Below, one piece after another: positions 2 to 14,105 of a stretch of DNA of 64,000 nucleotides. Both the position numbers and the translations under genes were made by a program. The DNA is from Gammaproteobacteria bacterium. Its GTDB lineage: Bacteria > Pseudomonadota > Gammaproteobacteria > GCA-002705445 > GCA-002716945. Each line of letters begins with the position of its first letter. The stretch's first letter is position 1. The stretch lies in assembly GCA_018667355.1 (NCBI GenBank), contig JABIVC010000015.1:1-64000 (forward strand), in the 5' to 3' direction. Under the pieces are notes generated by a model. The model saw nothing but the letters and a program-made list of their open reading frames with translations. It had not been told where the DNA came from and made no database searches.

Positions 2-502
2 GCACTTACTTCTCAAATATGGCTTATCTATGAAAAAGATAATGAATGGCATGCTGAGTCTGTAGGTACTATTGGTGATCCAGCTAAAATTCCACTACCT
101 GTTGATATTTCAATCACAGCTGATGATAAACATCTATGGGTAAATACTTGGAATGATGGTATGACTAGAGTGTTTGATATCTCTAACCCACACAATGCTG
201 TGGAAGTTAAAGCTCATCACATCGGAGACCAAGTAAATATGTTATCTCAAAGTTGGGATGGTAAACGTGTATACTTCACTACTTCACTATTATCAAATTG
301 GGATAAGGGTGATGTTCCTGAAGTTGAAGGTCCACCACAATTTTTCAAAGCATTCGATCAAGCAAATAATGAGTTAACTCATAAATTTACTATCGATTTT
401 GCAAAAGAAAAACTAGGTATGCCTCATCAAATGAGATTTGGTGCATATTCGTTATACTCGAAAACACCAGATAATAAAAATTTGGCAGAACTTAGTCAAT
501 AA
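2..502 (+). CDS. mtoX: Methanethiol oxidase (SBP56 family), C-terminal fragment
   Basis: The reading frame is open from the window edge to a TAA, so only the last 166 residues of the protein are seen. They carry the end of the SBP56/selenium-binding beta-propeller: a DISITADDKHLWVNTWNDG blade, DGKRVYFTTSLLSNWD, and a closing MPHQMRFG that corresponds to the family's usual RPHQVRLQGGD. SBP56 proteins of methylotrophs (MtoX) are periplasmic copper enzymes that oxidise methanethiol to formaldehyde, sulfide and peroxide. The usual C-terminal cysteine-containing tail is replaced by a divergent tail ending NLAELSQ. The next genes encode SCO and MauG-type domains, the known companions of mtoX in Hyphomicrobium, which favours methanethiol oxidase over a generic selenium-binding protein. 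The metal-binding N-terminal part lies outside the window. Confidence 0.8.
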   Translation, partial: ALTSQIWLIYEKDNEWHAESVGTIGDPAKIPLPVDISITADDKHLWVNTWNDGMTRVFDISNPHNAVEVKAHHIGDQVNMLSQSWDGKRVYFTTSLLSNWDKGDVPEVEGPPQFFKAFDQANNELTHKFTIDFAKEKLGMPHQMRFGAYSLYSKTPDNKNLAELSQ

Positions 503-566
503 ATTATTGTCATAGTTATAGACACCCTCATTGGTGGTAAATAACGTAAAATGGCTGTAACTTTTA

Positions 567-600
567 GGTCGCTTACTTAGGTAAGCGGCCTTTTTTTTTT
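567..600 (+). terminator. Rho-independent terminator after methanethiol oxidase
   Basis: A 10-bp stem (567-576 paired with 581-590, one G-T pair) closes on a TTAG loop and is followed at once by ten T residues. It is the strongest intrinsic terminator in the window. It separates the methanethiol oxidase transcript from the SCO-peroxidase gene, although some read-through is possible. Confidence 0.93.
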
Positions 601-655: not shown

Positions 656-2635
656 ATGGAGAAATCACGGATATATTTACTACTTTTAGTAGTGTTTTTT
701 AACAATGGATATGCGCAGGAAGCAAGTTATTCATCTACGGTATTAGCCCCTGGTTATAACCAGCTTTCTTTTGATGCACCTATTCCAGGATCATATACTT
801 TATCAAGCTATAAAGCTGCCTCTAATGGCGATGTAATAGATGTTGATGGACTAACTAAGTCCCTTCATAATATCTACGATGATAAAGTTGTGCTATTGAA
901 CTTTATGTATAGTACTTGCACTGATATTAATGGTTGTCCACTTGCTACAGCAGTATTTCATAAAATCAAAAATATTCTTGATAAGGATCCTGATATCGGT
1001 GAACAACTCAGTATGATTAGCCTCAGTTTTGATCCAGAAAATGACTCACCAGATGTAATGAAACTCTATGGTGATGGCACTGATTCTGGTGCAGTGGATT
1101 GGAAATTTCTAACGACTAATTCAATGGATGATTTAGACCCCATCCTTAATAAATATAGTCAACGTATAATTAAAGAATATGATGACAAAGGAAATTACAT
1201 TGGCTCAATATCACATATACTTAGAGTGTTTTTAATTGATAAAGAAAAAAACATAAGGAACATATATAGTGTTTCTTTTTTACATTCTGATGTTTTAATT
1301 AATGATGTTAAAACTTTATTGCATCCTGAATCTAAAAATGGAACAACAATTGTTGCTTCTACTGAAAATATTGTCCCATCCGGGTCTTCACTTGCAAGAC
1401 CAGGTGATGCTAAAGAAGGTTATGAGAGTGGTGACTATGTTACGGATGCACAAGAACTCAAAAGAATCGGTAAATCAACAGATTTATACAAGATTGCTAA
1501 TTCTAAAATACTAGGGTTACCAAAATTAAAAGTTACTGATGGAACTAACTTGACTAGAGAAAAGATTGCTCTAGGTAGAAAAATGTTTTTTGATAGGAGG
1601 TTATCTCATACTGATACTATCTCATGTGCAATTTGTCATGTACCAGAAATGGGCTTTGCGCACAATGAGCTTGCAACAGCTGTTGGCACAGAAGGCAGAT
1701 CTGTTCCAAGAAATTCTCCTACGATTTTAAACGCTGCATTATTAAATCGTTTATTCCATGACGGTAGGGAACATTCACTAGAAAACCAAGTTTGGGGCCC
1801 TTTACTTGCTCATAACGAAATGGCAAACCCTGCTCCTGGATATCTAATTAATAAGATTAAACATATTCCGGATTATGATAATTTATTTGAAGAAGCATAT
1901 GGAACAGGTCCGTCGATTGATACTATTAGTAAAGCCTTTTCAGCATATGAGTACACTTTATTAAGCGGTAATTCTGCATTTGATCGTTGGTATTACGCTG
2001 GTGAAAGAAATGCTATATCTAACAGTGCTAAAAAAGGATTTAAACTATTTACTGGAAAAGCTGCATGCATTACATGTCATTTAATTGGTGATGACTATGC
2101 TTTATTCACAGATGAAAAACTGCATAATACTGGGATGGGTTTCAAAGCATCTATGCATGTAGAGCCACCGACTAAAAAAGTAACATTAGTGCCAGGCCTG
2201 ACAATTGATATTGACACATCTTCTTATAGAGATAACATTGCTTTTAAAGATGAAATTGCACCAAATGACCTTGGCTTATATACGGTAACCCAAGATCCTA
2301 ATGATAGATGGAAATTTAGAACCGCAATGTTACGTAATGTAGAAATTACAGGCCCATACATGCATAATGGAGCGCTACAAACTTTAAAAGATGTGGTAGA
2401 GTTTTATAATCAAGGTGGCGTCAAGCAGTCTGGGAAAATGAAAAATGAGAACTTAAGTCCTTTAATGTTTCCTTTGAATTTATCTGAAAGCGAGGTTGAT
2501 AATATTGTTGAGTTCCTTAAAACTTTGACAGGGTCTAATGTAAATGAACTTATTTTGGATGCTAAAGCTGCTCCCATTGGCGAGATTTCTTTAGATGACC
2601 CTAACTGGTTTCATGAAAATAAGCCTAAATACTAA
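656..2635 (+). CDS. SCO domain fused to di-haem MauG/cytochrome c peroxidase domain
   Basis: This 659-residue exported protein has a signal peptide (residues 1-20, ending GYA). A SCO/SenC thioredoxin-like domain spans about 50-215, with C88, C94 and H187 as likely copper ligands. The cysteine spacing is CX5C rather than the usual CX3C. After a linker, residues about 285-635 form a di-haem peroxidase of the MauG/CCP family with haem motifs CAICH (324-328) and CITCH (471-475). In PYMHNG, M569 corresponds to the low-spin haem ligand of classical peroxidases. In Hyphomicrobium separate SCO and MauG genes follow mtoX. Here they are one polypeptide, which suggests copper delivery or oxidative maturation of methanethiol oxidase, or peroxide removal. 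It is followed six bases later by tlpA. The domain calls are firm; the role is inferred from context. Confidence 0.88.
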   Translation: MEKSRIYLLLLVVFFNNGYAQEASYSSTVLAPGYNQLSFDAPIPGSYTLSSYKAASNGDVIDVDGLTKSLHNIYDDKVVLLNFMYSTCTDINGCPLATAVFHKIKNILDKDPDIGEQLSMISLSFDPENDSPDVMKLYGDGTDSGAVDWKFLTTNSMDDLDPILNKYSQRIIKEYDDKGNYIGSISHILRVFLIDKEKNIRNIYSVSFLHSDVLINDVKTLLHPESKNGTTIVASTENIVPSGSSLARPGDAKEGYESGDYVTDAQELKRIGKSTDLYKIANSKILGLPKLKVTDGTNLTREKIALGRKMFFDRRLSHTDTISCAICHVPEMGFAHNELATAVGTEGRSVPRNSPTILNAALLNRLFHDGREHSLENQVWGPLLAHNEMANPAPGYLINKIKHIPDYDNLFEEAYGTGPSIDTISKAFSAYEYTLLSGNSAFDRWYYAGERNAISNSAKKGFKLFTGKAACITCHLIGDDYALFTDEKLHNTGMGFKASMHVEPPTKKVTLVPGLTIDIDTSSYRDNIAFKDEIAPNDLGLYTVTQDPNDRWKFRTAMLRNVEITGPYMHNGALQTLKDVVEFYNQGGVKQSGKMKNENLSPLMFPLNLSESEVDNIVEFLKTLTGSNVNELILDAKAAPIGEISLDDPNWFHENKPKY

Positions 2636-2641
2636 AATTAT

Positions 2642-3166
2642 ATGAAAAAAATATTATCACTATTCATTTTATTACCGATACTTTTTGTCTCTTATAATAA
2701 CGTTAAAGCTTCAGGATATCTGATGGATCCTATGCCTAGCCATGATAGAGCACCTGAATTTAGTTTAATGGGCATGGACGAAAAAGTTCATACATTAAAA
2801 AGCTTGGAAGGTAAATTCTTACTAGTAAATTTTTGGGCTACTTGGTGTAATCCTTGTAAAGCTGAAATGCCTACCTTAGAGGCTATCCATAAGAGATTTG
2901 ACAATGATAAATTTACTGTTATCGGGATTCATGTCGGCCCAGGTCCTGAAAACATCCGGAATTATTTAGACATAAGTCCAGTATCATTCCCTATATTTAT
3001 AGATATGGACTTAGAATATGACTGGGGTGTTCCGGGATTGCCAACTACATTTTTGATTAGTCCGAAAGGTGAAATGCTGTATAGAGCTGTAGGCAAAAGA
3101 GACTTCTCTTCTCCTAAAATGGAATTATTTTTTAGCAAAATTATTGATGATCACTTTAAAAAATAA
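2642..3166 (+). CDS. TlpA/ResA-type exported thioredoxin
   Basis: The product has 174 residues with an N-terminal signal or anchor (LFILLPILFVSY). A thioredoxin fold follows, with the active site WCNPC (C69, C72) and the cis-proline at P134 in GLPTT. TlpA/ResA proteins reduce disulfides outside the cytoplasm, typically in apocytochromes c or copper-site cysteines. It lies six bases after the SCO-peroxidase gene and is probably co-transcribed with it. A plausible job is keeping the SCO cysteines or the haem-attachment cysteines reduced. It ends five bases before the convergent fhcC stop, with no terminator visible. Confidence 0.85.
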   Translation: MKKILSLFILLPILFVSYNNVKASGYLMDPMPSHDRAPEFSLMGMDEKVHTLKSLEGKFLLVNFWATWCNPCKAEMPTLEAIHKRFDNDKFTVIGIHVGPGPENIRNYLDISPVSFPIFIDMDLEYDWGVPGLPTTFLISPKGEMLYRAVGKRDFSSPKMELFFSKIIDDHFKK

Positions 3167-3171
3167 TATTT

Positions 3172-3969
3172 TCATCCTTTAAATAAAAATATCTCAGAAA
3201 GGTTATTAGTGTCTTTATGACCACAGTACCTCACTAATGAATTATTGTTTATAAAAAGATTTTTAGAAATTATTTTAGATATTTCTTTAATGAAGAAACT
3301 GGTAAAATTATACTCTGCATTATTAGACTTATTATAGTTTTTGACAAGATTTTTATCTTTTGTGAAAATACTACCCCGTTTAATTTCTTCTGCAAAAAAC
3401 TTTCCAATTTTACCTTTAATCATGACTGTGCCTGATATCATTTGATGACATCCATAATCTCCTATATTTCCTTCAATTATTATATTACCTCTCCTCATTC
3501 TTTCTATCGAGTTATTACCCACATTTCCTTTTATAAATAAAAGACCATCTATCATACCTTCGTTTAAAGAATTACTTTTCCCGCAGGTATAATTGCCAGT
3601 ATCGCCATATATAAATATTGAGCCACCTTTCATTCCAGACGCAGTATAATCTAGAGTATTACCATACACTTCAAGTTTTCCGGAAATCATTTGTTCACCC
3701 AATGAATAGCCAACATCTCCATATACAGTAATATTAATATCTCTTAATTTTTTTCCTATATTATCTAGTAAATGTACAGATGATTTTATAACGATATTAT
3801 TTACATCATCACCTTTAATACTAAATAGATCTTTAATTTTGAACTGCTTGTTCCCATACATAATTATTTTAGATGCCAGGGAAGATGAATTTTTAGATAA
3901 GGTAGATAAACATGACATATCTATCCTATATTTTAATCTTTTTTTAAGCTGTAGCGTTATAGGCTTCAT
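3172..3969 (-). CDS. fhcC: Formyltransferase/hydrolase complex subunit C
   Basis: The 265-residue protein resembles FwdC/FhcC. Its C-terminal two thirds are a beta-helix built from repeats of the GDxGxxxGxxMxxGxIxIxG type (for example YGDVGYSLGEQMISG and GNIGDYGCHQMISG). In methylotrophs FhcC is part of the FhcABCD complex, which moves the formyl group from formyl-H4MPT to methylofuran and hydrolyses it to formate. The ATG overlaps the fhcD stop as ATGA, implying coupled translation. It is the last gene of fhcBADC. The C-terminal tail after about residue 215 is lysine and asparagine rich and poorly conserved. Confidence 0.92.
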   Translation of the reverse strand: MKPITLQLKKRLKYRIDMSCLSTLSKNSSSLASKIIMYGNKQFKIKDLFSIKGDDVNNIVIKSSVHLLDNIGKKLRDINITVYGDVGYSLGEQMISGKLEVYGNTLDYTASGMKGGSIFIYGDTGNYTCGKSNSLNEGMIDGLLFIKGNVGNNSIERMRRGNIIIEGNIGDYGCHQMISGTVMIKGKIGKFFAEEIKRGSIFTKDKNLVKNYNKSNNAEYNFTSFFIKEISKIISKNLFINNNSLVRYCGHKDTNNLSEIFLFKG

Positions 3970-4862
3970 TTCATTATCTTCCTTAAGTGGAAATGATGTT
4001 GTCCTAATTTCCCACCATAATTTCCTGCTGAGATAGATACTATATCTTTTTTTATTTTCAACTTACCAATGCTTTCAATACTATTTTTTATTGCTATATT
4101 TATGTCTTGAAATGTTAAACCATTAATAACTATCTCCATCACACAATTTACATTAGATGGTAAGTTACTATTAATAATACTTTTTAAGGTAGGGCAAAAA
4201 GCATCATTAGTTGACGCTATCAAAGCTTTATATTTTGAGCCTACCTTTGATCCAGATCTTACTACTCCGCCAGGGAAAGGAGTTATTACGTTAGATTGAT
4301 TTTTTATTGCATTTATAGCAGCCTCACAGGCAGATAGGCATGATTTCCTATTATTGCTCAATACCAAGAAATTACCACCACCTATTGCGGGGACGCGTGC
4401 TGTAGACTCTTCACATAAAAATTCTCCATCCATAACAGGTATACGCCAAAACCTCCTATCTAATATTTTTTTCGAGATCTGATAGCCATCTCCAAAATAC
4501 CTTAAGTTTTTACCCAGCGGTATCATATCTTCGCCACTCATCCCTGAAAATATCGCCGTTGTAGGACAAGTTAGAATACATTGACCAACTCTTGTTTCTA
4601 GTTGCTTTTCTAACTGAGTTCTAGACATTGAAAACAATAAGATTGAATACCCAGGCCTATTATCAGGAGTTTCTGAGGTCTTCAATTGTTTTTCTATTCC
4701 TGCTTCTATACCACATGCTATTACTGATGTTGCAAAACCTGTAAAAGAATCACATGCATTCTTTGCCCATCTTAAGTTATCTGCTGTGACAATTATTCGA
4801 CTAGCTTTCATATTGAAAGCTTCTGCAAATGTATTGTCTATTTTAATACCTTTATAATTCAT
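3966..4862 (-). CDS. fhcD: Formylmethanofuran:H4MPT formyltransferase subunit
   Basis: FhcD (Ftr family) transfers the formyl group from formyl-H4MPT to the furan cofactor in the cytoplasm. I start it at the ATG giving MNYKGIKIDNTFAEAF, because Ftr proteins begin this way and because this ATG overlaps the fhcA stop as ATGA. A start 21 bases further upstream is possible but adds an unlike leader. The 298-residue length matches the family. Conserved stretches include CPTTAIFSG and the glycine-rich GGGNFLVLS and FPGGVVRSGSKVGSKYKAL. It overlaps fhcC by four bases. Confidence 0.94.
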   Translation of the reverse strand: MNYKGIKIDNTFAEAFNMKASRIIVTADNLRWAKNACDSFTGFATSVIACGIEAGIEKQLKTSETPDNRPGYSILLFSMSRTQLEKQLETRVGQCILTCPTTAIFSGMSGEDMIPLGKNLRYFGDGYQISKKILDRRFWRIPVMDGEFLCEESTARVPAIGGGNFLVLSNNRKSCLSACEAAINAIKNQSNVITPFPGGVVRSGSKVGSKYKALIASTNDAFCPTLKSIINSNLPSNVNCVMEIVINGLTFQDINIAIKNSIESIGKLKIKKDIVSISAGNYGGKLGQHHFHLRKIMK

Positions 4863-6517
4863 TCTTTCCTTTTTCGTGAACAATTATTAACATAAATAGG
4901 ACTGCCCACTAGCCTATGCATTTCATCATCACTAATTATGTAGTTATCTAGCTTCATTGTATGGTACTTATCAAAAAATTTACTTAAATCTTTCTCGATT
5001 GATTTATCATATTCTGGTTTTACGGTATGAGTCTTGCCCCATATATATTCTTTTATTTGGCCGTTCTCTACAACAATCTTACCATCTTTAATAACAAGAG
5101 ATGGGTGGGCAAACATTTCCTCAATATCTTTTATATTTTTATTATAAACAGTTATATCTGCATCAGAGCCATTTGAGAAATTCCCCTTTTTTTCTAGTCC
5201 TAGAATCTTGGCGGGAGCTGATCTTGTCATGATAGAAATTTCATCCATAGTATATTCTCGTTTAAGAGTATGCAGAATTGTATGTTCAAGGATCCCCTTC
5301 GGTAGTTGATTTAAAATATCATTACGGAAAGTTTTATCCATAAGCAATTTAATTAGATGAGGATAAGATGTAAATGGTGCACCATTAGGGTGATCTGTTG
5401 TTAAAAAGACCTTCCAAGGGTCTTCTGCTAATAAAAATATTTCTAAGCCTATAGCCCATTGAAGAGCATTCACAAAACTTTTATCTTGATACTTAAATGG
5501 AACAACTCCGCATCCCGCATCACATTCTATATCCATACACATCCATTTCTTAGGATGAGCATGTTTATGATTTCTATGCTGGGACATACTGTCTCCGGAC
5601 ATGGTTACAGTTTGCCCAAACATAATCTGTCCTACATCACATGTAAGATTATCTATTTTATTTAAATAATTTGAGATTTCTACGGCTGCAGAAGAAAATC
5701 CTCTATCACCATTATTACCATAACTTTGGAATTGTATATGTGTTAAGTGGATTGGTAATCCATTAGCTGCCTTAATAGTTTCAATTGTTGAAAAAAAATT
5801 ACCTGGAATACCCAAGTTGCTGCAATGAACATGTAATGGATGAGGAACACCCAAGTCGTATAGTGCTTTTGTAAGTTTCTCAACAATCTCTCTGGGTGTA
5901 ATATTAAAGTATTTTGACTTTTCATCCACATTAAGAGCTCTTTGGTTAAACTTGAATGCATTAATACCACCGGGATTTACAACTTTTATACCGATAGATT
6001 GAGTTGCTTTTAAAATAAATGCCACATAGTCATTTATTGTAGATTGACTAGATTTATTTTTAAGTAAGCTTAAAAAATAGTCATCATTTCCTAGTAAAGC
6101 ATACCCACCTTTATCTATAAAGGGAATATCAGACATTTCTGCATGCGCTTGTCTTGCATTAATTGGTAATAGAGCTGGCTCAAAACAGGTTGTATAGCCC
6201 ATCTCTATATATTTTAATCCTGTTTTAAGAGTTGATGGCGCAATGATCGAAGAAGAATCATAATTAGGGTCAATCTCGTTATGAAACTCTTCCAGCATCA
6301 ATCTTGCAATATTTACTTTACCTCCACCAATATGAGTATGCAAATCTATTGCGCCTGGCATTACAATTTTATCTGAGCAATTGATGACTTTATCAATTTT
6401 TGATTTAATATCTTTCTTATTAATTATTTTTCCATCTTCAATAAAAATATCTTTCTTTACATTAAATATTTTATTATGAGGATCGTATACATTTCCAGAT
6501 TTTAGTTGAGTTATCAA
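4859..6517 (-). CDS. fhcA: Formyltransferase/hydrolase complex amidohydrolase subunit A
   Basis: FhcA/FwdA is the amidohydrolase-type subunit that hydrolyses formyl-furan cofactor to formate. The 552-residue protein carries the metal-site motif DLHTHIGGGK (H60, H62), the GIKVVNPGG segment around the expected carboxylated lysine, HVHCSNLG, and TTDHPNGAPF with the catalytic-site aspartate. Translation begins at a TTG. An AGGA Shine-Dalgarno lies seven bases upstream and overlaps the TAG stop of fhcB, so the two are probably coupled. No closer ATG fits the N-terminal beta strand of the family. Confidence 0.94.
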   Translation of the reverse strand: MITQLKSGNVYDPHNKIFNVKKDIFIEDGKIINKKDIKSKIDKVINCSDKIVMPGAIDLHTHIGGGKVNIARLMLEEFHNEIDPNYDSSSIIAPSTLKTGLKYIEMGYTTCFEPALLPINARQAHAEMSDIPFIDKGGYALLGNDDYFLSLLKNKSSQSTINDYVAFILKATQSIGIKVVNPGGINAFKFNQRALNVDEKSKYFNITPREIVEKLTKALYDLGVPHPLHVHCSNLGIPGNFFSTIETIKAANGLPIHLTHIQFQSYGNNGDRGFSSAAVEISNYLNKIDNLTCDVGQIMFGQTVTMSGDSMSQHRNHKHAHPKKWMCMDIECDAGCGVVPFKYQDKSFVNALQWAIGLEIFLLAEDPWKVFLTTDHPNGAPFTSYPHLIKLLMDKTFRNDILNQLPKGILEHTILHTLKREYTMDEISIMTRSAPAKILGLEKKGNFSNGSDADITVYNKNIKDIEEMFAHPSLVIKDGKIVVENGQIKEYIWGKTHTVKPEYDKSIEKDLSKFFDKYHTMKLDNYIISDDEMHRLVGSPIYVNNCSRKRKE

Positions 6518-6526
6518 AATTTTTTC

Positions 6527-7771
6527 CTATGCTAATTTATCTAATATATTTTGTGTGGTCGGCAATTTTATACCCCTAATACTTTTTAGTGCGACAGAAA
6601 CAACATTATCAGTTCTAAACATTATACCTTCATAATCAATCCCTGGTATCCCTACTGGTATAAATATATCTGGCGCCATGGTAAAGGTTGTATTTGGATG
6701 TCCTAAAACTATATTTTTAACATTCTTATTCAATTTTAATTTATCAGGACTAATAGTTGAGATATGAATTACTACATCAACATTATTATTATCTATTAAG
6801 TGCTTACTATCAAAAGCATTTCTATCATGCTTAAATGTTCCTTCAGAATGTTTTATTCTAGATGAGAATCCTGTCGTCCATGTTAGGGCTTGAGATGAAG
6901 TTGCATCTGCAAGTGAACCTGATATTGGCATACATGCAGCCCTAGATAATATATTGCGATCAACAATATATTTAGAAATTGATGAGATTATCTTTTTTGG
7001 ATTTTTTGCTTTTATAAAATCAGAAGCTAACCATATAGCAACAAGATATTTTGATTTATTAATAATATTTTTAATATTAGAGAGTTTACTTTTTTTTAGT
7101 CCTTTAACAGCCTCTGAACTATCAAGTGAAGTTGCATTTAAAAAATCATTTGTTAAATCTAAATCAAGCTTAACATTGGTTACATTACACTTCTTCTTAA
7201 TTTCTTTTATAATATTCTCAGAAAAATCCCCGATTAGTATTAATTCTTTTTTCTTTTTCATATATAAACTATTTTTTGCCCCCAGAACTTTTTCCAGCAA
7301 TCTAGGGCTTTTATCAAATATTTGATTACCAAAAACCATGACTACATCTGCACGATTTTTAGCTTCAGTTAACGAAGTAGCCATATATCCAGTCCTTTGA
7401 ACAACTCCTATATTTTGATATAAAAACTTAGAGTTTATATGATCTATAATATAGTTTTTTTGAGATGCGAAATTTAGCATTGACCTTACGCCTGATAAAT
7501 CTACACCATGGTTAATAATTAAGGTTTCATTGTGTCCTTTTATAATGTTTCTAATATCCTCTAGTGCACTAGATAGTGAGACTACTTTTGCGCCTTTCTT
7601 AGGAAGTAACATGCTTTTATTATTTAAATTATATGTATCAATTTTTTTAGCACACACATTATTACTTTCATTAACTTTATACTGATTATTGTCTGTGGTT
7701 ACACTTACATCATCACAATGTAAAGAGCAGAAAGGACATACTAAATTCTTATTATCATTTTGGCTAGCCAT
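6527..7771 (-). CDS. fhcB: Formyltransferase/hydrolase complex subunit B
   Basis: The 414-residue protein is related to FwdB, the molybdopterin subunit of formylmethanofuran dehydrogenase. It keeps an N-terminal iron-sulfur-like CPFCSLHC motif with a further Cys in NVCAKK. In the segment where archaeal FwdB carries the metal-ligand cysteine or selenocysteine, it reads VVQRTGYMATSLTEAKNRAD with no cysteine. This agrees with bacterial FhcB being a structural subunit without Mo/W redox activity. It is the first gene of fhcBADC. The leader is very short and I see no Shine-Dalgarno. Confidence 0.92.
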   Translation of the reverse strand: MASQNDNKNLVCPFCSLHCDDVSVTTDNNQYKVNESNNVCAKKIDTYNLNNKSMLLPKKGAKVVSLSSALEDIRNIIKGHNETLIINHGVDLSGVRSMLNFASQKNYIIDHINSKFLYQNIGVVQRTGYMATSLTEAKNRADVVMVFGNQIFDKSPRLLEKVLGAKNSLYMKKKKELILIGDFSENIIKEIKKKCNVTNVKLDLDLTNDFLNATSLDSSEAVKGLKKSKLSNIKNIINKSKYLVAIWLASDFIKAKNPKKIISSISKYIVDRNILSRAACMPISGSLADATSSQALTWTTGFSSRIKHSEGTFKHDRNAFDSKHLIDNNNVDVVIHISTISPDKLKLNKNVKNIVLGHPNTTFTMAPDIFIPVGIPGIDYEGIMFRTDNVVSVALKSIRGIKLPTTQNILDKLA

Positions 7772-7786
7772 ATGGCTATATTCTAC

Positions 7787-7792
7787 ATTATA
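7787..7792 (-). promoter_or_regulatory. Probable -10 box for fhcBADC
   Basis: Read on the minus strand this is a consensus TATAAT. The hexamer 17 bases upstream is TTTTAT, a weak -35. Transcription would start near 7780, giving a leader of about nine bases before the fhcB ATG. Confidence 0.45.
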
Positions 7793-7829
7793 ACCATGTC
7801 ACTTTGTACATAAAAGGTATAAAATATGG

Positions 7830-7852
7830 ACGTAAATATATTGTATATACGT
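7830..7852. repeat. Imperfect inverted repeat before mptG
   Basis: Arms 7830-7840 and 7842-7852 match at nine of eleven positions, and a further position could form a U-G pair in RNA. The repeat ends one base before the mptG ATG and fills the right part of the 82-bp divergent gap between fhcB and mptG. It could be an operator for both operons or a hairpin masking the mptG start. Confidence 0.4.
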
Positions 7853-7853
7853 T

Positions 7854-8807
7854 ATGAATAAGAATAGAAAAGAATTTGAAATAAGTAGTCCATCTAGACT
7901 CCATCTTGGTTTTTATGGTTTTGATGATAATTATGGCTATAAGTATGGAAGTATGGGGCTCGCAATTAATGCATACAAAACAACCTTATGTATAAAAAAA
8001 TCAAAATCCTTTTGCAGTAATATACCAAAAAAATTCACTACCCCGGTACTAAAATATTTAAAAAAAAATAAACTCAGCACGAATTTTGAAATTAATTTGT
8101 TGGCGAAACCTCCCAGTCATATAGGTTTAGGATCTGGCTCACAATTATCGCTATGCATGGGCAAGTCTATATTTGCATACCTTGATATCGATGCAAGTAT
8201 CAATGATATTGCTAATATCTTTGATAGGGGAGAGAGATCAGGGACCGGCATAAGCTTATTCAGTAAAGGAGGATTTGTGGTTGACGCTTGTAAGAAGTTC
8301 AATGAATTGCCAATGGCAATGTTCAATTCTAAATTTCCTAGCAAGTGGAAAATTATTCTTATAAATGATAACTCACTCAAAGGAGCTTCCGGCAAGAAAG
8401 AGGTGAAATTTTTCAATCAGAATATCAAGTTATCTAAGCAATATAAATCGGAGTTATCACATATTGTTTTAAGAGGAATATTGCCCTCAGTAATCTACAA
8501 GGATTTCGATAATTTTTCAAAAAATATCTCTGAATTTCAGAAAATTACATCATTATTTTATAAAGATAAACAGAAGGGTGTTTTTTTGAGCCAAGATATC
8601 TCTGAGATAATGAAATATATTAGAAATTATGATAACTTAGGTATGGGTCAAAGCTCTTGGGGGCCGATGTCTTATATATTTGTTGAATCTAGTTTACATG
8701 CTAAAGAACTTATAAGTATTATCCAAAATAAATTTAATGTGTATAATAACCTAACATTTAAGATTACAAGCCCATGGAATTCGGGTTATAAAATTAGCTA
8801 TAAATAA
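7854..8807 (+). CDS. mptG: Beta-ribofuranosylaminobenzene 5'-phosphate synthase
   Basis: This enzyme joins p-aminobenzoate to phosphoribosyl pyrophosphate, releasing CO2, the committed step of H4MPT synthesis. The 317-residue protein is a GHMP-kinase-fold member: N-terminal SPSRLHLGFYGF, the glycine-rich PPSHIGLGSGSQLSLCMG (about residues 83-100), RSGTGISLFSKGGF, and a C-terminal GMGQSSWGPMSY. All are hallmarks of the beta-RFAP synthase family. It heads the plus-strand mptG-mtdB-mch-fae run, directly opposite fhcB. pabB at 16809 would supply its pABA substrate. Confidence 0.9.
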   Translation: MNKNRKEFEISSPSRLHLGFYGFDDNYGYKYGSMGLAINAYKTTLCIKKSKSFCSNIPKKFTTPVLKYLKKNKLSTNFEINLLAKPPSHIGLGSGSQLSLCMGKSIFAYLDIDASINDIANIFDRGERSGTGISLFSKGGFVVDACKKFNELPMAMFNSKFPSKWKIILINDNSLKGASGKKEVKFFNQNIKLSKQYKSELSHIVLRGILPSVIYKDFDNFSKNISEFQKITSLFYKDKQKGVFLSQDISEIMKYIRNYDNLGMGQSSWGPMSYIFVESSLHAKELISIIQNKFNVYNNLTFKITSPWNSGYKISYK

Positions 8808-8828
8808 ACAAGCAATGGAGACTTAATC

Positions 8829-9719
8829 ATGGAAAAACCTTTTTTATTACATATGATAACACCTGAGAAGAATATCAGTCCATTTGACGCAAATATGGCT
8901 TTTGACGCTGGCTGGAACTCGATAATCCCATATACAAATATAGAAATGAATGAAATACAAGGAATCGTTCAGGATACAATTTTTTCAAGGTCTCCATCAG
9001 CTTTAAAAAGAACAGGTATCTTCATCGGTGGAAGAGATCCTCATACTGCGATGGATATGATAGAGGAAGCTAAAAAACATATGGTACCACCTTTTGAGGT
9101 ACCTGTTTTTGCAGACCCTAGTGGTGCGTTTACAACAGCTGCAGGAATGGTAGCGATAACCGAAAAGGCTCTTAAAGATAAGTTTTCTGAGAATTTTACA
9201 GATAAAAAGGTAGTAATCTTGGGTGGAACTGGGCCAGTTGGTGTAGCTTCTGCTGTTATAAGTGCAAAAGCTGGAAATACTGTGTTACTAGTAGGAAGAA
9301 GTCTAGAGAAAGCTGAAAGTATAGCTAAAATATGTAATGAAAAATATGGCTCAAAGTCGGTCTCTGGAGCAGTTGATGCAGAAAAAGCATCTTTCTTGGC
9401 AGACGCTGATGTTGTTTTTAATACTGGAGCTGCTGGCATTCAATTAATGAATGATGAGCTAATAAAGAATGCAGTAAATTTAAAGATATGCGCAGATGTT
9501 AATGCTGTGCCACCTGCTGGTATCTCTGGCATAGACGCAATGGACAATGTTGTTGCAATGAAAAATTCTAAGTCTGGTTGTTTTGGGATAGGAGCACTAG
9601 CTATTGGAAATATCAAATATAAATCCCAACATGATTGTTTGAAACTTATGTATAATTGTGACAAACCAGTATATTTACATTTTGAGCATGCGTTTGAATT
9701 TGCACAAAAAAATGTCTAA
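8829..9719 (+). CDS. mtdB: Methylene-H4MPT dehydrogenase
   Basis: MtdB oxidises methylene-H4MPT to methenyl-H4MPT with NAD(P)+ in the cytoplasm. The 296 residues include the N-terminal MITPEKNISPFDANMAFDAGW, FADPSGAFTTAAGM, and the nucleotide-binding VVILGGTGPVGVASA (about residues 128-142) followed by VGRSLEKA. A good GGAG Shine-Dalgarno lies eight bases upstream. The TAA stop shares an A with the ATG of the next gene (TAATG). MtdB is preferred over the NADP-specific paralogue MtdA because of the H4MPT gene context. Confidence 0.94.
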   Translation: MEKPFLLHMITPEKNISPFDANMAFDAGWNSIIPYTNIEMNEIQGIVQDTIFSRSPSALKRTGIFIGGRDPHTAMDMIEEAKKHMVPPFEVPVFADPSGAFTTAAGMVAITEKALKDKFSENFTDKKVVILGGTGPVGVASAVISAKAGNTVLLVGRSLEKAESIAKICNEKYGSKSVSGAVDAEKASFLADADVVFNTGAAGIQLMNDELIKNAVNLKICADVNAVPPAGISGIDAMDNVVAMKNSKSGCFGIGALAIGNIKYKSQHDCLKLMYNCDKPVYLHFEHAFEFAQKNV

Positions 9720-10783
9720 TGATCGATACTGTTGTTGTAATAAACTCAGATACATCATATTTAGAAAGCAAGCTCGCATCACTAGGCATCAAAGTTTTTG
9801 CCTTTGATTATTATAATCATAATAATTTAGATAAAATCCAGAGCCTTATCTATCTTGAGTCATTCATTAATAAAATTTCTGTTCATAATAAGAACATTGG
9901 TTTAATTTATGGTTCTGGCCTAGAAGATAAGCCAGAAATATATGATTACCTGAAGACTAAGTTGCAAATTTTAGGCAATAATCCAAATATTCTAACCAAG
10001 TGTAATAACTTGAGACTACTACAAGACATATTATCTAAATGTAATCTTAAACTTCCGGAGCATACAGATAACCCCGATAATATATCTAAGAAATATTTAT
10101 CTAAGCCATATAATAGCTCTGGTGGGTATAATATTTCATTTAACGAAAGCTCTAGAAAAGGTTATTATTTTCAAGAGTATTTGCCAGGGGAAACATATTC
10201 GGTATCTTTCTTTAATTATAAGGATAATTTTACCTTCCTTGGGTTTAATAAATTATTGCAACTTGTAAATTATCAGCCTCATCCTTTCATACATGCTGGA
10301 GCAATAACAACAGCCAAATTTGAAAATTCTTATAATATAATTTCTTCCTTTAAGAAGCTAGCAAGGTATCTTTCGATGAATGGCTATAATAGTATTGATT
10401 TTAAAGTAATAGATAATGAAGTTTTTATACTGGATATTAATCCAAGAATTACTTCTACATTTAAGATTTATAATGATTGTTACAATAATGCCTTGCTGAA
10501 TCATATGATAGACCCTGGTCTTGGAAAAGTAGAGGAGAAGGATAGTAATAATATATATGCTTTTGTACATATGTTCGTTAAAAATAAATATGTATTTAAA
10601 AATATTTTTATTAATGATTCATCATTTTTAAATCTTCCTGAGGAAGGTCAGTATGTCGATAAGAATCAGCCTTTGTTGTCAATATATATAAACTCATTTT
10701 CTGAATCTGATTTATTGATACAATTAAAAGAAAAAATTTCCATGACAAGGAATCTTTATAACTGCTATGATATAGATATCTAA
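9719..10783 (+). CDS. ATP-grasp protein of the H4MPT cluster (COG2232-like)
   Basis: This 354-residue ATP-grasp protein has an N-terminal Rossmann-like half. The ATP-binding part is recognisable by YLSKPYNSSGGYNI, the YYFQEYLPGETYSVSF beta strands and a C-terminal metal-binding FILDINPRITSTF. ATP-grasp enzymes ligate a carboxylate to an amine or thiol. Similar genes accompany H4MPT genes in methylotrophs (probably the one called orf17), and their substrate is not established to my knowledge. It is translationally coupled to mtdB (TAATG) and three bases from mch. A role in cofactor glutamylation or assembly is inferred. Confidence 0.78.
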   Translation: MIDTVVVINSDTSYLESKLASLGIKVFAFDYYNHNNLDKIQSLIYLESFINKISVHNKNIGLIYGSGLEDKPEIYDYLKTKLQILGNNPNILTKCNNLRLLQDILSKCNLKLPEHTDNPDNISKKYLSKPYNSSGGYNISFNESSRKGYYFQEYLPGETYSVSFFNYKDNFTFLGFNKLLQLVNYQPHPFIHAGAITTAKFENSYNIISSFKKLARYLSMNGYNSIDFKVIDNEVFILDINPRITSTFKIYNDCYNNALLNHMIDPGLGKVEEKDSNNIYAFVHMFVKNKYVFKNIFINDSSFLNLPEEGQYVDKNQPLLSIYINSFSESDLLIQLKEKISMTRNLYNCYDIDI

Positions 10784-10786
10784 ATT

Positions 10787-11755
10787 ATGACTGATAAAAT
10801 AAGTATAAATAAAGTTGTTAAGCCATTAGTTGAAAAGCTGATTGAAACTGCGGATCAATTAAATATTGGCGTGCATACTTCAGAAGGTGGAGCTAAGATT
10901 GTCGATGCTGGTATTAATTATCCTGGTTGCTTAGAGTCTGGACGGTTAATCACAGAGATATGCATGGGTGGATTAGGCAGGGTATCATTATCTATGACAA
11001 CTAATACACCAAATTGGCCGCTATCTATTCATGTTCATAGCACTAATCCAGTAATAAGTTGTTTAGGGAGCCAATATGCTGGTTGGAACCTCTCTTTCGT
11101 TAAAGAAGAAGATAACTTTAATGCTCTTGGATCAGGTCCATGCAGAGCACTTGCTTTGAAGGAAGACTTATTCAAAGACTTAGATTATTCAGATAAATTT
11201 TACTCAACAGTAGTTGTAATGGAAGTTGACAGGAATCCTCCCCAAGAAATTATAGATAAGATAGTAAATGATTGCAGTATTAGCGAGAAGAATCTCACTA
11301 TCATATTAACACCAACTAGATCGTTATCTGGTTCTGTTCAAGTTGTTGGCAGAGTCTTAGAAGTTGGCATGCATAAATTACATGAAATAGGATTCCCCTT
11401 AGATAAAGTCGTTGATGGTTTCGGGTCTGCACCTATCCCACCGCCAGCTCCTGATTTTTTAATTGGGATGGGGAGAACAAATGATGCAATATTATATGGT
11501 GGAATGGTCCATCTTTTTGTAGACGTGGATGACGACGAGGCATATGAGCTTGCCAAAAGATTACCTAGTTCAACATCATCCGATTATGGAAAACCTTTTG
11601 CCGATGTCTTTAAGGAATATAAATATGACTTTTATAAGATTGATAAACTTCTTTTTAGCCCAGCAAAAGTTATTGTTACAACAATGAAAACAGGAAAAAC
11701 TTTTACAGAAGGAACTATAGATCTAGAACTAGTTGATAAATCATTTAATAAATGA
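10787..11755 (+). CDS. mch: Methenyl-H4MPT cyclohydrolase
   Basis: Mch hydrolyses methenyl-H4MPT to 5-formyl-H4MPT, the step between MtdB and the Fhc complex. The 322-residue protein has the family's conserved EGGAKIVDAGINYPG, SLGSQYAGW-like CLGSQYAGWNLS, GSGPCRALA, and the C-terminal GFGSAPIPPPAPDFLIGMGRTNDAILYGG. Length and motif order are standard. Its TGA overlaps the next ATG (ATGA). Confidence 0.96.
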   Translation: MTDKISINKVVKPLVEKLIETADQLNIGVHTSEGGAKIVDAGINYPGCLESGRLITEICMGGLGRVSLSMTTNTPNWPLSIHVHSTNPVISCLGSQYAGWNLSFVKEEDNFNALGSGPCRALALKEDLFKDLDYSDKFYSTVVVMEVDRNPPQEIIDKIVNDCSISEKNLTIILTPTRSLSGSVQVVGRVLEVGMHKLHEIGFPLDKVVDGFGSAPIPPPAPDFLIGMGRTNDAILYGGMVHLFVDVDDDEAYELAKRLPSSTSSDYGKPFADVFKEYKYDFYKIDKLLFSPAKVIVTTMKTGKTFTEGTIDLELVDKSFNK

Positions 11756-12663
11756 GAAAAGTTTTAATCCTAACTGATCAAAAAGGCTGGCATTATAGGC
11801 AATTGCAAAAATCTTTTGAAAGTAAAAATATTTTAGTTGACTCATCTAATTTGGATGACCTATCAATAGCAATACATAACAATCAAAATTATATTATAAA
11901 AAATAATGGTGAATCATTATCTGATATTACGGATGTTTTTGTCCGCCATATACCCGGTGGGTCACTAGAAGAAATAATAGTAAACCTTAATATTCTCAAA
12001 GTTTTTGAATCCCATAATATTAATATAATGAATACGGCAGAAAATATTGAAATGACAGTTGATAAATCACTTACATCTATCAGACTAAGACAAGGTGGTA
12101 TCTTGACACCTGATACTTGGATAATTAGAGGGAAAAAGAATTGTAAAAAAATTATTCCAGACCTCCTTAAAAAACATCCTTTGATTTTTAAACCATTATT
12201 TGGTTCGCAGGGTGACAATATAGTGAAGATTACAGAGACCTCTGATTTTGATAAAATTATAAATGAAAGTAATATATTTTATATACAAGAATTTCTTGAA
12301 ACAAAACCCTCTCATGATTATCGGGTATTAATAGTCAGAAATAAAAATAAATATTTTTTGCATACAATGATGCGTTATAGTGATTCTTATATAAATAATA
12401 TATCAAAAGGTGCAAGATGTGTCCCTATGAAAACCGATGAAGGAATCATCAAGACAGCAGTGGATGCAGCATCATTGATTAATATACCTTTTTGTGGTGT
12501 CGATATTATCAGGCATGATAACAGGAACTACGTGATTGAGTTAAACAGTATTCCAGCATGGAAAGGTATGCAGTCCATCACAAAAGATAACATTTCAGAT
12601 GAAATCGCAGAAATATTTATTCAAAACATAACAGATGCATCTTATGTGTCTATTCAAAAATAA
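11752..12663 (+). CDS. RimK-like ATP-grasp ligase of the H4MPT cluster (orf5 type)
   Basis: The 303-residue protein belongs to the RimK/MptN branch of ATP-grasp ligases: VFVRHIPGGSLEEI, then AENIEMTVDKSLTSIRL, LIFKPLFGSQGDNIVKI as the ATP-binding segment, YIQEFLE, and CGVDIIRHDNRNYVIELNSIPAW with the metal-binding E-x-N. The matching gene next to mch in Methylobacterium is orf5, needed for H4MPT-dependent growth. MptN adds a glutamate to the pterin cofactor side chain, so a cofactor-glutamate ligase is the likeliest activity. It overlaps mch by four bases. Confidence 0.8.
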   Translation: MRKVLILTDQKGWHYRQLQKSFESKNILVDSSNLDDLSIAIHNNQNYIIKNNGESLSDITDVFVRHIPGGSLEEIIVNLNILKVFESHNINIMNTAENIEMTVDKSLTSIRLRQGGILTPDTWIIRGKKNCKKIIPDLLKKHPLIFKPLFGSQGDNIVKITETSDFDKIINESNIFYIQEFLETKPSHDYRVLIVRNKNKYFLHTMMRYSDSYINNISKGARCVPMKTDEGIIKTAVDAASLINIPFCGVDIIRHDNRNYVIELNSIPAWKGMQSITKDNISDEIAEIFIQNITDASYVSIQK

Positions 12664-12668
12664 TCCTA

Positions 12669-13547
12669 ATGACTGATAACCCAAAATATCTTCATTTAGA
12701 TAGAGATTTTAAAGAATCTATACTCAGAGACTCATATTTATATGCATGTCATAAAGACATCGAGGTAATCAAACCTGGAAATGTTAATATAAATTCCCCT
12801 CATAAGGATACCTCGGCTAGTGACTATCTTATAAGTTCAATCAATAGTGGATCCGAGCTATTTCATACTAGCTATAGCCTTGGTGAAAGAATTCTTAACT
12901 CAATTCTTGCTACGAGAAATGAAACTTCAGTGAATACAAATCTAGGGATAATCATGTTATGTGCACCGATTATTCATGCGCTTATCAATTACAGGGATTT
13001 GAGCCTCAAGGAGGCTATTAAAAAGACTATTAGTGATGCTGATGCTGATGATACTTCAAAGATATGTGAAGCTATTAATATAACCAGTCCAGGAGGATTA
13101 GGTAATAGTTCAAGGTATGACACTAAGTCCAAGCCCAAAATCAAATTAAGAGAAATAATGACTTATTCAGCTAGCTATGATCGGATTTCATACCAATATC
13201 ATAAGAACTTCGAAGATATTATTGATTTTATCCTTCCTAATCTTGAAAAAAATATAATTAAATATGATTCTGATGATATTTCAATTTCTATGACATTTCT
13301 TCAAATCTTGGGTAAAATCCCAGATTCGCATATTTCACGTAAATTTGGTGAAGAAATAGCAAAAAAGACTAGTAATCGTGTCAATGATTTGTTAAAAATA
13401 CAAGACAAGGAATGTAGTCATGATTTTCTGGTTAAACAGCTAAATGATCTTGATTGCGAATACAAGAAAAAAGGAATTAATCCGGGGACTACCGCAGATT
13501 TATTAGTCGCAAGTTTGATGATTTATAGGATTTTCAAAAGTGTATAA
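12669..13547 (+). CDS. CitG-like protein of the H4MPT cluster (orf7 type)
   Basis: This 292-residue protein belongs to the triphosphoribosyl-dephospho-CoA synthase (CitG/MdcB) family. It carries KPGNVNINSPHKDTSASDYL near the start, TNLGIIMLCAPI in the middle, and the C-terminal NPGTTADLLVASLMI. True CitG makes the prosthetic group of citrate lyase, but no citrate-lyase genes are near. The orf7 homologue sits between orf5 and fae in Methylobacterium. The substrate here is unknown; a phosphoribosyl transfer in cofactor synthesis is a reasonable inference. The stop is within the -10-like box ahead of fae. Confidence 0.8.
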   Translation: MTDNPKYLHLDRDFKESILRDSYLYACHKDIEVIKPGNVNINSPHKDTSASDYLISSINSGSELFHTSYSLGERILNSILATRNETSVNTNLGIIMLCAPIIHALINYRDLSLKEAIKKTISDADADDTSKICEAINITSPGGLGNSSRYDTKSKPKIKLREIMTYSASYDRISYQYHKNFEDIIDFILPNLEKNIIKYDSDDISISMTFLQILGKIPDSHISRKFGEEIAKKTSNRVNDLLKIQDKECSHDFLVKQLNDLDCEYKKKGINPGTTADLLVASLMIYRIFKSV

Positions 13548-13580
13548 TCTAAGTATGAACCATTTAATATAAACAAGGAG
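13543..13580 (+). promoter_or_regulatory. -10-like box and strong ribosome site of fae
   Basis: TATAAT at 13543-13548 overlaps the stop codon of the CitG-like gene. AAGGAG at 13575-13580 lies six bases before the fae ATG, among the best Shine-Dalgarno sites in the window. No good -35 is visible. A private promoter would suit the high expression usual for Fae. Confidence 0.5.
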
Positions 13581-13586
13581 ATAAAA

Positions 13587-14105
13587 ATGGCAGTAATTGA
13601 TAAAGTATTGGTCGGTGAAGGACTAGTTGTAACTGAAGGCGGTGACAATGAAATAGCTCATATCGACTTAATTATGGGACCACGTGGTTCTGCTGTAGAA
13701 GATGCATTTTGTAATACACTTTGTAATAACAAAGATGGTTTTACTTCGCTATTAGCTGTATGTGCACCTAATCTACCAACTAAACCAGCTACAGTAATGT
13801 TTAACAAAGTTACTATTAAAGGGGCTAAACAAGCAGTTCAAATGTTTGGACCAGCTCAAAGAGCAGTAGCTATGGCTGTTACAGATTCTGTAAAAGATGG
13901 AACAATTCCAGCAGCTGAAGCAAATGATATTTTCGTTTGTGTTGGTGTTTTCATCCATTGGGATGCTAACGATGATACTAGAATTTATGACTACAACTAT
14001 GAAGCTACAATGATGGCTATCAAAGGTGCGGTTTCTGGTAAACCAACAGCCGAAGATGTTGTTGCAGCAGCAGCAGATTCTGCTCACCCATACTCACCTA
14101 AGTAG
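13587..14105 (+). CDS. fae: Formaldehyde-activating enzyme
   Basis: Fae catalyses condensation of formaldehyde with H4MPT to methylene-H4MPT. The 172-residue length is standard. The conserved core is present: [20 protein letters not shown] with the catalytic histidine H25, [41 protein letters not shown] and [11 protein letters not shown]. The coding sequence has a more regular codon choice than its neighbours, consistent with strong expression. It is flanked by its own Shine-Dalgarno and by a terminator. This is the entry point for any formaldehyde made by methanethiol oxidase. Confidence 0.98.

Follow-up and report, generated by a model that had tools for sequence, protein, structure and literature searches.

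Genes for the methanethiol oxidase MtoX have been described beside sco1 and mauG genes that are either separate or fused, and roles in copper loading and TTQ formation have been suggested for their products (Eyice et al. 2018, PMC5739008). In Methylophaga thiooxydans, the gene order is mtoX, a sco1/mauG fusion, and tlpA, with induction on DMS together with MtoX (Kroeber & Schaefer 2019, PMC6548844). Hyphomicrobium sp. VS and Ruegeria pomeroyi (SPOA0270/0271) have separate sco and mauG-like genes after mtoX and hence make two polypeptides; R. pomeroyi shares the C-X5-C SCO motif and an FHDGR di-haem protein with the locus described below but has no tlpA next to them. Since 2018, it has been an open question whether a protein-derived cofactor is needed by bacterial MtoX.

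The locus analysed here lies in a stretch of 64,000 nucleotides ("the window"; bases 1-64000 of contig 14) from a genome of 1.03 Mb that is 94% complete. It resembles that of M. thiooxydans in encoding fused, exported SCO1 and MauG-type domains directly after mtoX and before tlpA, but it belongs to an uncultured streamlined marine gammaproteobacterial family and the fusion stands beside an H4MPT cluster. The original prediction had presented the fusion as a contrast to known loci, and this part finds no support, as the same SCO1/MauG fusion and order are published for Methylophaga (Eyice et al. 2018, PMC5739008; Kroeber & Schaefer 2019, PMC6548844); the fusion as such is therefore no discovery. 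New here are a survey of its coupling to MtoX, the recognition of a subfamily of its own with private motifs, and the H4MPT neighbourhood. Our literature search found no paper on this lineage as a methanethiol methylotroph and no experiment on the lineage.

Gene neighbourhood of the fusion

The contig starts inside mtoX, so the N-terminal two thirds of the enzyme are missing (Table 1), and the missing 5' part is absent from every other contig of the genome. The remaining fragment scores 219 bits over positions 258-407 of profile NF052453, and as this is one third of the protein, the cut-off of 650 bits is out of reach. The same kind of break is seen in other metagenome contigs of this family that start inside mtoX (L003, L004, L015, L037, and L038), probably because very conserved sequence among co-occurring species breaks assembly. 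The fusion gene had been placed directly between an SBP56/MTO gene and a TlpA gene, and this is borne out by the NCBIfam MtoX match upstream and the TlpA-like gene downstream. The TlpA-like protein is a candidate reductant of the SCO cysteines, a partnership suggested by its place in the locus, while no sqr, pdo, or sulP gene was found beside the fusion among the window genes scanned.

A scan of a genome collection recovered 19 loci, all from uncultured Proteobacteria or Gammaproteobacteria, one of them assigned to the Ectothiorhodospiraceae. The order mtoX, fusion, tlpA, and convergent fhcC-D-A-B is kept in those relatives whose contigs reach far enough, and because the same order recurs in relatives, the arrangement is not a matter of chance. 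The fusion reads as two or more open reading frames in L016-L019; in G012 and L018, which belong to the window's own family, these are two overlapping frames that reflect either a real split or a frameshift, and G012 was scored as split.

Table 1. Features of the mtoX-fusion-tlpA locus and its surroundings (window coordinates)
Feature	Position	Strand	Basis or details
MtoX (methanethiol oxidase, SBP56 superfamily), last 166 aa	2..502	+	NF052453 5.9e-65, PF05694 3e-18
Equivalent of proposed TTQ Trp390 (L002 numbering)	nt 299-301	+	residue map
Equivalent of copper ligand His432 (L002 numbering)	nt 425-427	+	residue map
Intrinsic terminator, 11-bp stem AGGTCGCTTAC/GTAAGCGGCCT and T run	566..600	+	terminator scan
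SCO1/SenC - di-haem MauG-like fusion gene	656..2635	+	659 aa, ATG start, exported (predicted)
Predicted signal sequence, about residues 1-20	656..715	+	MEKSRIYLLLLVVFFNNGYAQEA, judged by eye
SCO1/SenC domain, residues 73-199	872..1252	+	PF02630 3.7e-13
C-X5-C motif C88-TDING-C94-P	nt 917-937	+	motif survey
SCO-domain His187	nt 1214-1216	+	motif survey
Di-haem MauG-like domain, about residues 280-628	1493..2539	+	PF03150 and alignment with MauG, MbnH, CcP
First haem site CAICH 324-328	nt 1625-1639	+	alignment
His368 in FHDGR	nt 1757-1759	+	alignment
Distal Glu388	nt 1817-1819	+	alignment
Second haem site CITCH 471-475	nt 2066-2080	+	alignment
Axial Tyr584	nt 2405-2407	+	alignment
TlpA/ResA-like exported thioredoxin, WCNPC	2642..3166	+	AhpC-TSA 1.1e-19, ResA-like 1.9e-27; position conserved
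H4MPT formaldehyde-oxidation cluster, complete; outside the fusion system	3172..14105		fhcC, fhcD, fhcA, fhcB convergent; RFAP synthase, mtdB, mch, mptN-like ligase, fae

Between mtoX and the fusion gene, ~64 nt past the mtoX stop, lies a strong predicted terminator (z = -3.9 for 545-605). Of 16 family loci, the window included, 14 have a hairpin with a T-rich tail at the corresponding position, with stem sequences that vary. A promoter-like match at 622-649 does not exceed what chance would give. Because this terminator-like hairpin separates the two genes, MtoX and the fusion are probably made in unequal amounts, and we infer an expression ratio that differs between the enzyme and its putative maturase.

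Domain architecture and the SCO motif

The fusion protein had been read as a single exported chain with an SCO domain and a two-haem domain; both are recovered with Pfam, and the residues that had been named are correct. The N-terminus is hydrophobic and ends in GYAQEA, which by eye resembles a Sec signal. PF02630 matches the SCO domain with 50.0 bits (cut-off 22.8), CCP_MauG (PF03150) matches residues 302-449 (9.8e-47), and a Cytochrom_C match covers residues 589-624. C88, C94, H187, CAICH 324, and CITCH 471 are all conserved among the relatives aligned. An AlphaFold2 model built from 11 sequences (pLDDT 38.7, pTM 0.32) is too poor for reading the packing of the domains.

Rather than the usual SCO signature of C-X3-C-P plus a distant His, the fusion has a C-X5-C-P copper motif with His187. 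This spacing is shared by all 32 MTO-linked SCO domains surveyed, by Ruegeria pomeroyi, and by 4 more genomes, usually as CxDxNGCP, whereas the ordinary SCO proteins encoded in these loci carry the C-X3-C form CPDxCP. By its motif, the MTO-linked SCO domain is a private type. We know of no description of a C-X5-C SCO variant from our non-exhaustive literature search.

The di-haem domain

We aligned the haem domain with MauG of Paracoccus denitrificans (locus L153), segments of the cytochrome peroxidase CcP (1nml), and other CCP_MauG proteins. As in CcP, there are two CXXCH sites (324 and 471) within a CCP_MauG domain, but Tyr584 occupies the position of the Met ligand of the high-potential haem that is found in CcP, 1nml included. 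Tyr584 instead aligns with the axial Tyr294 of MauG and is also Tyr in the MbnH alignment, and Glu388 aligns with the distal Glu113 of MauG, so that the His/Tyr ligation and distal Glu typical of MauG are both present. Among 35 MTO-linked haem domains, Tyr584 and Trp445 are each found in 35, Trp380 in 34, Glu388 in 32, and His368 in 28.

The fusion therefore shares two c-haems, the axial Tyr, and the distal Glu with MauG of P. denitrificans, but MauG has no SCO fusion, its partner is methylamine dehydrogenase rather than MtoX, and two of its tryptophans are exchanged. His368 replaces the inter-haem Trp (MauG Trp93), which is kept in MauG, 1nml, and non-MTO homologues, and Ala469 stands at the position of MauG Trp199, with Ala or Gly across the MTO-linked domains. 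Trp199 of MauG lies on the electron-hopping route to its substrate. The match to the di-haem enzyme MbnH (6e1c) spans the whole di-haem domain and includes the conserved axial Tyr. The MauG profile TIGR03791 gives the fusion 202.4 bits against a cut-off of 443.85 and the MbnH profile TIGR04039 gives 210.9 bits against 362.85; as these curated scores are about half of the cut-offs, we regard the domain as having MauG/MbnH-like ligation while being a member of neither family. BthA of Burkholderia (6nx0) is likewise a di-haem CCP_MauG member without the inter-haem Trp and acts as a peroxidase that forms a bis-Fe(IV) state (PMC6405878); its match to the fusion is weak (1.8e-14), it has Ser where the fusion has His, and no SCO domain or link to MtoX is described for it in the text consulted. 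Judged by these alignments and motifs, the SCO and di-haem pair forms a sequence subfamily of its own.

Some loci, among them L112, L113/L139, L121, L122, and L124, have a second, stand-alone di-haem gene in addition to the fusion. In G270, G356, and G385 the fusion lacks Glu388 while a separate homologue beside mtoX retains it, which suggests that a Glu-dependent function is needed at the locus.

Residues specific to the MtoX type

The nearest complete relative of the truncated enzyme is the MtoX of L002, which is 90% identical over the shared part. It has an export signal, the activity Cys C34, and the copper ligands H94, H95, H147, and H432, of which only the last falls within the window. 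The expectation that the upstream gene keeps the metal ligands of methanethiol oxidase is supported by this relative, with HH94-95, H147, and H432 all in place. The two SBP56 types share these histidines, which are present in 17-18 of the 18 proteins of the other type, and Trp390 is likewise common to both. Trp52, Trp106, Trp228, Trp279, Trp336, and Trp375, by contrast, are invariant or nearly so in the MtoX type and rare or absent in other SBP56 proteins. A Cys277/Cys286 pair in L002 is near-invariant in the gammaproteobacterial MtoX set and absent from R. pomeroyi MtoX; from its conservation, it may possibly form a disulfide.

The proposed TTQ pair of MtoX, R. pomeroyi residues 223/386 (PMC10936201), corresponds to Trp228/Trp390, and both are invariant in the 35 MtoX-type proteins. 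Trp228 is found in 35 of 35 MtoX with a partner but in 0 of 18 SBP56 proteins without one, 15 of which have a Trp three residues earlier. Strict conservation of the TTQ tryptophans in every domain of life has been claimed (PMC5739008); in our sequence alignment this claim appears to fail for Trp228, owing to the shifted Trp of the other SBP56 proteins. In the literature found, neither TTQ nor any other modified residue is reported for any MtoX, which counts against an oxidative maturation of the enzyme.

Coupling of the SCO and di-haem pair to MtoX

The same 369 gammaproteobacterial genomes were searched with the fusion profile and with SBP56, and the loci were then typed. MtoX-type SBP56 proteins are ≥54% identical to the family's MtoX, other SBP56 proteins 24-32%. 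The SCO and di-haem pair is present in 34 of 35 genomes with an MtoX-type oxidase and in 0 of 334 others (Fisher p ~3e-47, a statistic that ignores kinship). About 25 of these 34 genomes have the pair fused and 9 have it as two genes, and mtoX and the partner are directly adjacent in 32. The single MtoX-type genome with no partner found is G264, where the locus is cut at a contig end; in G145, MtoX and the fusion both lie at contig ends, and G336 has a second MtoX-type copy with no partner nearby. All ~25 fusions fall in MtoX-type genomes, and only that of G385 is not beside an MtoX gene, as MtoX there neighbours a stand-alone di-haem gene while the fusion is elsewhere in the genome. The possibility that such fusions might be widespread away from any methanethiol oxidase therefore finds no support among the 369 genomes.

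Near SBP56 proteins of the other type, the pair was never seen within the few kb fetched. The pattern extends to a sample of 379 genomes across Pseudomonadota, in which all 4 genomes whose MtoX passes the NCBIfam cut-off encode the C-X5-C SCO and the di-haem protein in separate genes, while 10 loci fetched around weaker SBP56 matches had neither. An intermediate SBP56 protein in G333 (L134, 4878-6755) is 32% identical to MtoX and keeps the HH and PHT motifs; its gene is followed directly by an ordinary C-X3-C SCO with no di-haem gene. The sole converse exception is an FHDGR-type di-haem protein (L183, 4746-5966) in G615, a genome without any SBP56 gene.

On an unrooted tree of MtoX, the fused state is clustered and changes 5 times, of which at least 3 changes are forced by starred branches. 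The original prediction had proposed the fusion as a genomic marker for methanethiol users, but as a marker the fused state is no better than the pair itself, since fused and separate versions both go with MtoX and interchange along its tree. Sharper tags are the C-X5-C motif of the SCO domain and the FHDGR motif of the haem domain. We also considered a chance meeting of an ordinary SCO with an ordinary peroxidase. Di-haem CCP_MauG proteins are indeed common (95 of 369 genomes have a match to the profile with an E-value of at most 1e-40), but we reject such co-location as highly improbable given the 34/35 versus 0/334 distribution, the private C-X5-C and FHDGR subfamilies, and a gene order conserved across families.

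Possible role of the fusion in MtoX maturation

The original prediction of a dedicated maturation or peroxide-handling partner stands as far as the tie to MtoX is concerned and remains the best reading, though at the level of function it is an inferred one. We consider it likely, if far from certain, that the fusion acts in the periplasm as a dedicated maturase of MtoX, which loads copper and oxidises residues of the enzyme. After export, the SCO-like domain, reduced by the neighbouring TlpA, would carry copper and hand it to the His94/His95/His147/His432 site of MtoX. With H2O2 that may come from MtoX itself, the di-haem domain would be raised to a high-valent state of the MauG type and would then oxidise one or more MtoX side chains, with the Trp228/Trp390 pair as the first candidate. 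Fusion would hold both maturation steps together, and less maturase than enzyme would be made owing to the terminator that follows mtoX. The domain make-up, the tight phylogenetic coupling to MtoX, the MauG-type haem ligand and distal Glu, the distinct SCO motif, the MtoX-specific tryptophans, and the conserved terminator-like hairpin are observed, and the transfer of copper, the oxidation of side chains with its target, and the direction of action are proposed.

A comparison of published activities is suggestive only. Native MtoX has a Vmax of ~16 umol/min/mg (PMC5739008). Partner-free MtoX produced in E. coli oxidised 77 uM MT, and the standard assay there used 0.3 mg/mL and 30 min (PMC10936201). 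By our own arithmetic, which assumes the standard assay and compares different species and assays, the partner-free enzyme reaches ~9 nmol/min/mg, ~1000-fold below the native one. This gap fits maturation, but copper shortage in E. coli would give the same. Human SELENBP1 produced in E. coli has copper-dependent oxidase activity and is reported to form H2O2 (PMC10362175), and since both it and partner-free MtoX are active, the chemistry has no strict need of either domain. Three observations on the haem protein also speak against the maturase reading, namely Ala/Gly in place of Trp199, His in place of the inter-haem Trp, and the FHDGR haem protein in G615, which is free of SBP56.

The main rival is that the di-haem domain is a peroxidase clearing periplasmic H2O2 from MtoX, with the SCO domain as the sole maturation part, an explanation that we find rather unlikely yet worth weighing. 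H2O2 formation has been reported for native MtoX (PMC5739008), the window's own genome (G000, 94% complete) has neither catalase (PF00199) nor a KatG-type peroxidase (PF00141), bacterial CcPs rank first by E-value among the solved relatives of the domain, and BthA is a peroxidase without the inter-haem Trp (PMC6405878). On the other hand, the axial position is Tyr as in MauG and MbnH instead of the Met of the aligned CcP, one study saw no H2O2 from recombinant MtoX (PMC10936201), and the haem partner tracks the MtoX subtype and is absent near other SBP56 proteins although SELENBP1 is also reported to form H2O2 (PMC10362175). It seems improbable that the fusion, instead of maturing MtoX, takes part in the reaction itself, whether as an electron-transfer or oxidase partner whose haems or SCO thiols accept electrons or by handling the sulfane sulfur or sulfide product. 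Exported c-type haems are natural electron carriers, but the terminator-like hairpin that separates the genes points to different amounts of the two proteins. MauG-type Tyr/His haem pairs are, to our knowledge, not known as electron carriers, which also counts against such a role. The SCO thiols and TlpA could handle persulfides, and sulfane sulfur is a reported MtoX product (PMC10936201), yet native MtoX, once purified, works as an oxidase on O2 with no partner of this kind (PMC5739008), a result that already goes most of the way towards refuting this role.

Favouring maturation, we offer its most specific version as a less likely possibility: one polypeptide may install both copper and an oxidised tryptophan cofactor in MtoX, through a C-X5-C SCO domain and a His-for-Trp di-haem domain, in a streamlined marine lineage with methanethiol as its main source of formaldehyde.

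Methanethiol as a possible carbon source

No PQQ methanol or alcohol dehydrogenase over cut-off was found in the window's own genome or in 11 family members (G006, G007, and G010-G018), including genomes that are 99% and 100% complete. Because the family members searched have MtoX next to a complete H4MPT pathway and no PQQ methanol dehydrogenase, formaldehyde from MtoX is a plausible main input of the H4MPT pathway, and these ~1 Mb organisms are possibly methanethiol-fed methylotrophs.

Testable handles on the cofactor question are provided by the near-obligate partner pair, by Trp228 following the partner, and by the roughly thousandfold activity gap, itself cross-study arithmetic. More broadly, an uncultured marine family with genomes of ~1 Mb may live largely on methanethiol carbon and could be a sink in the ocean sulfur cycle.
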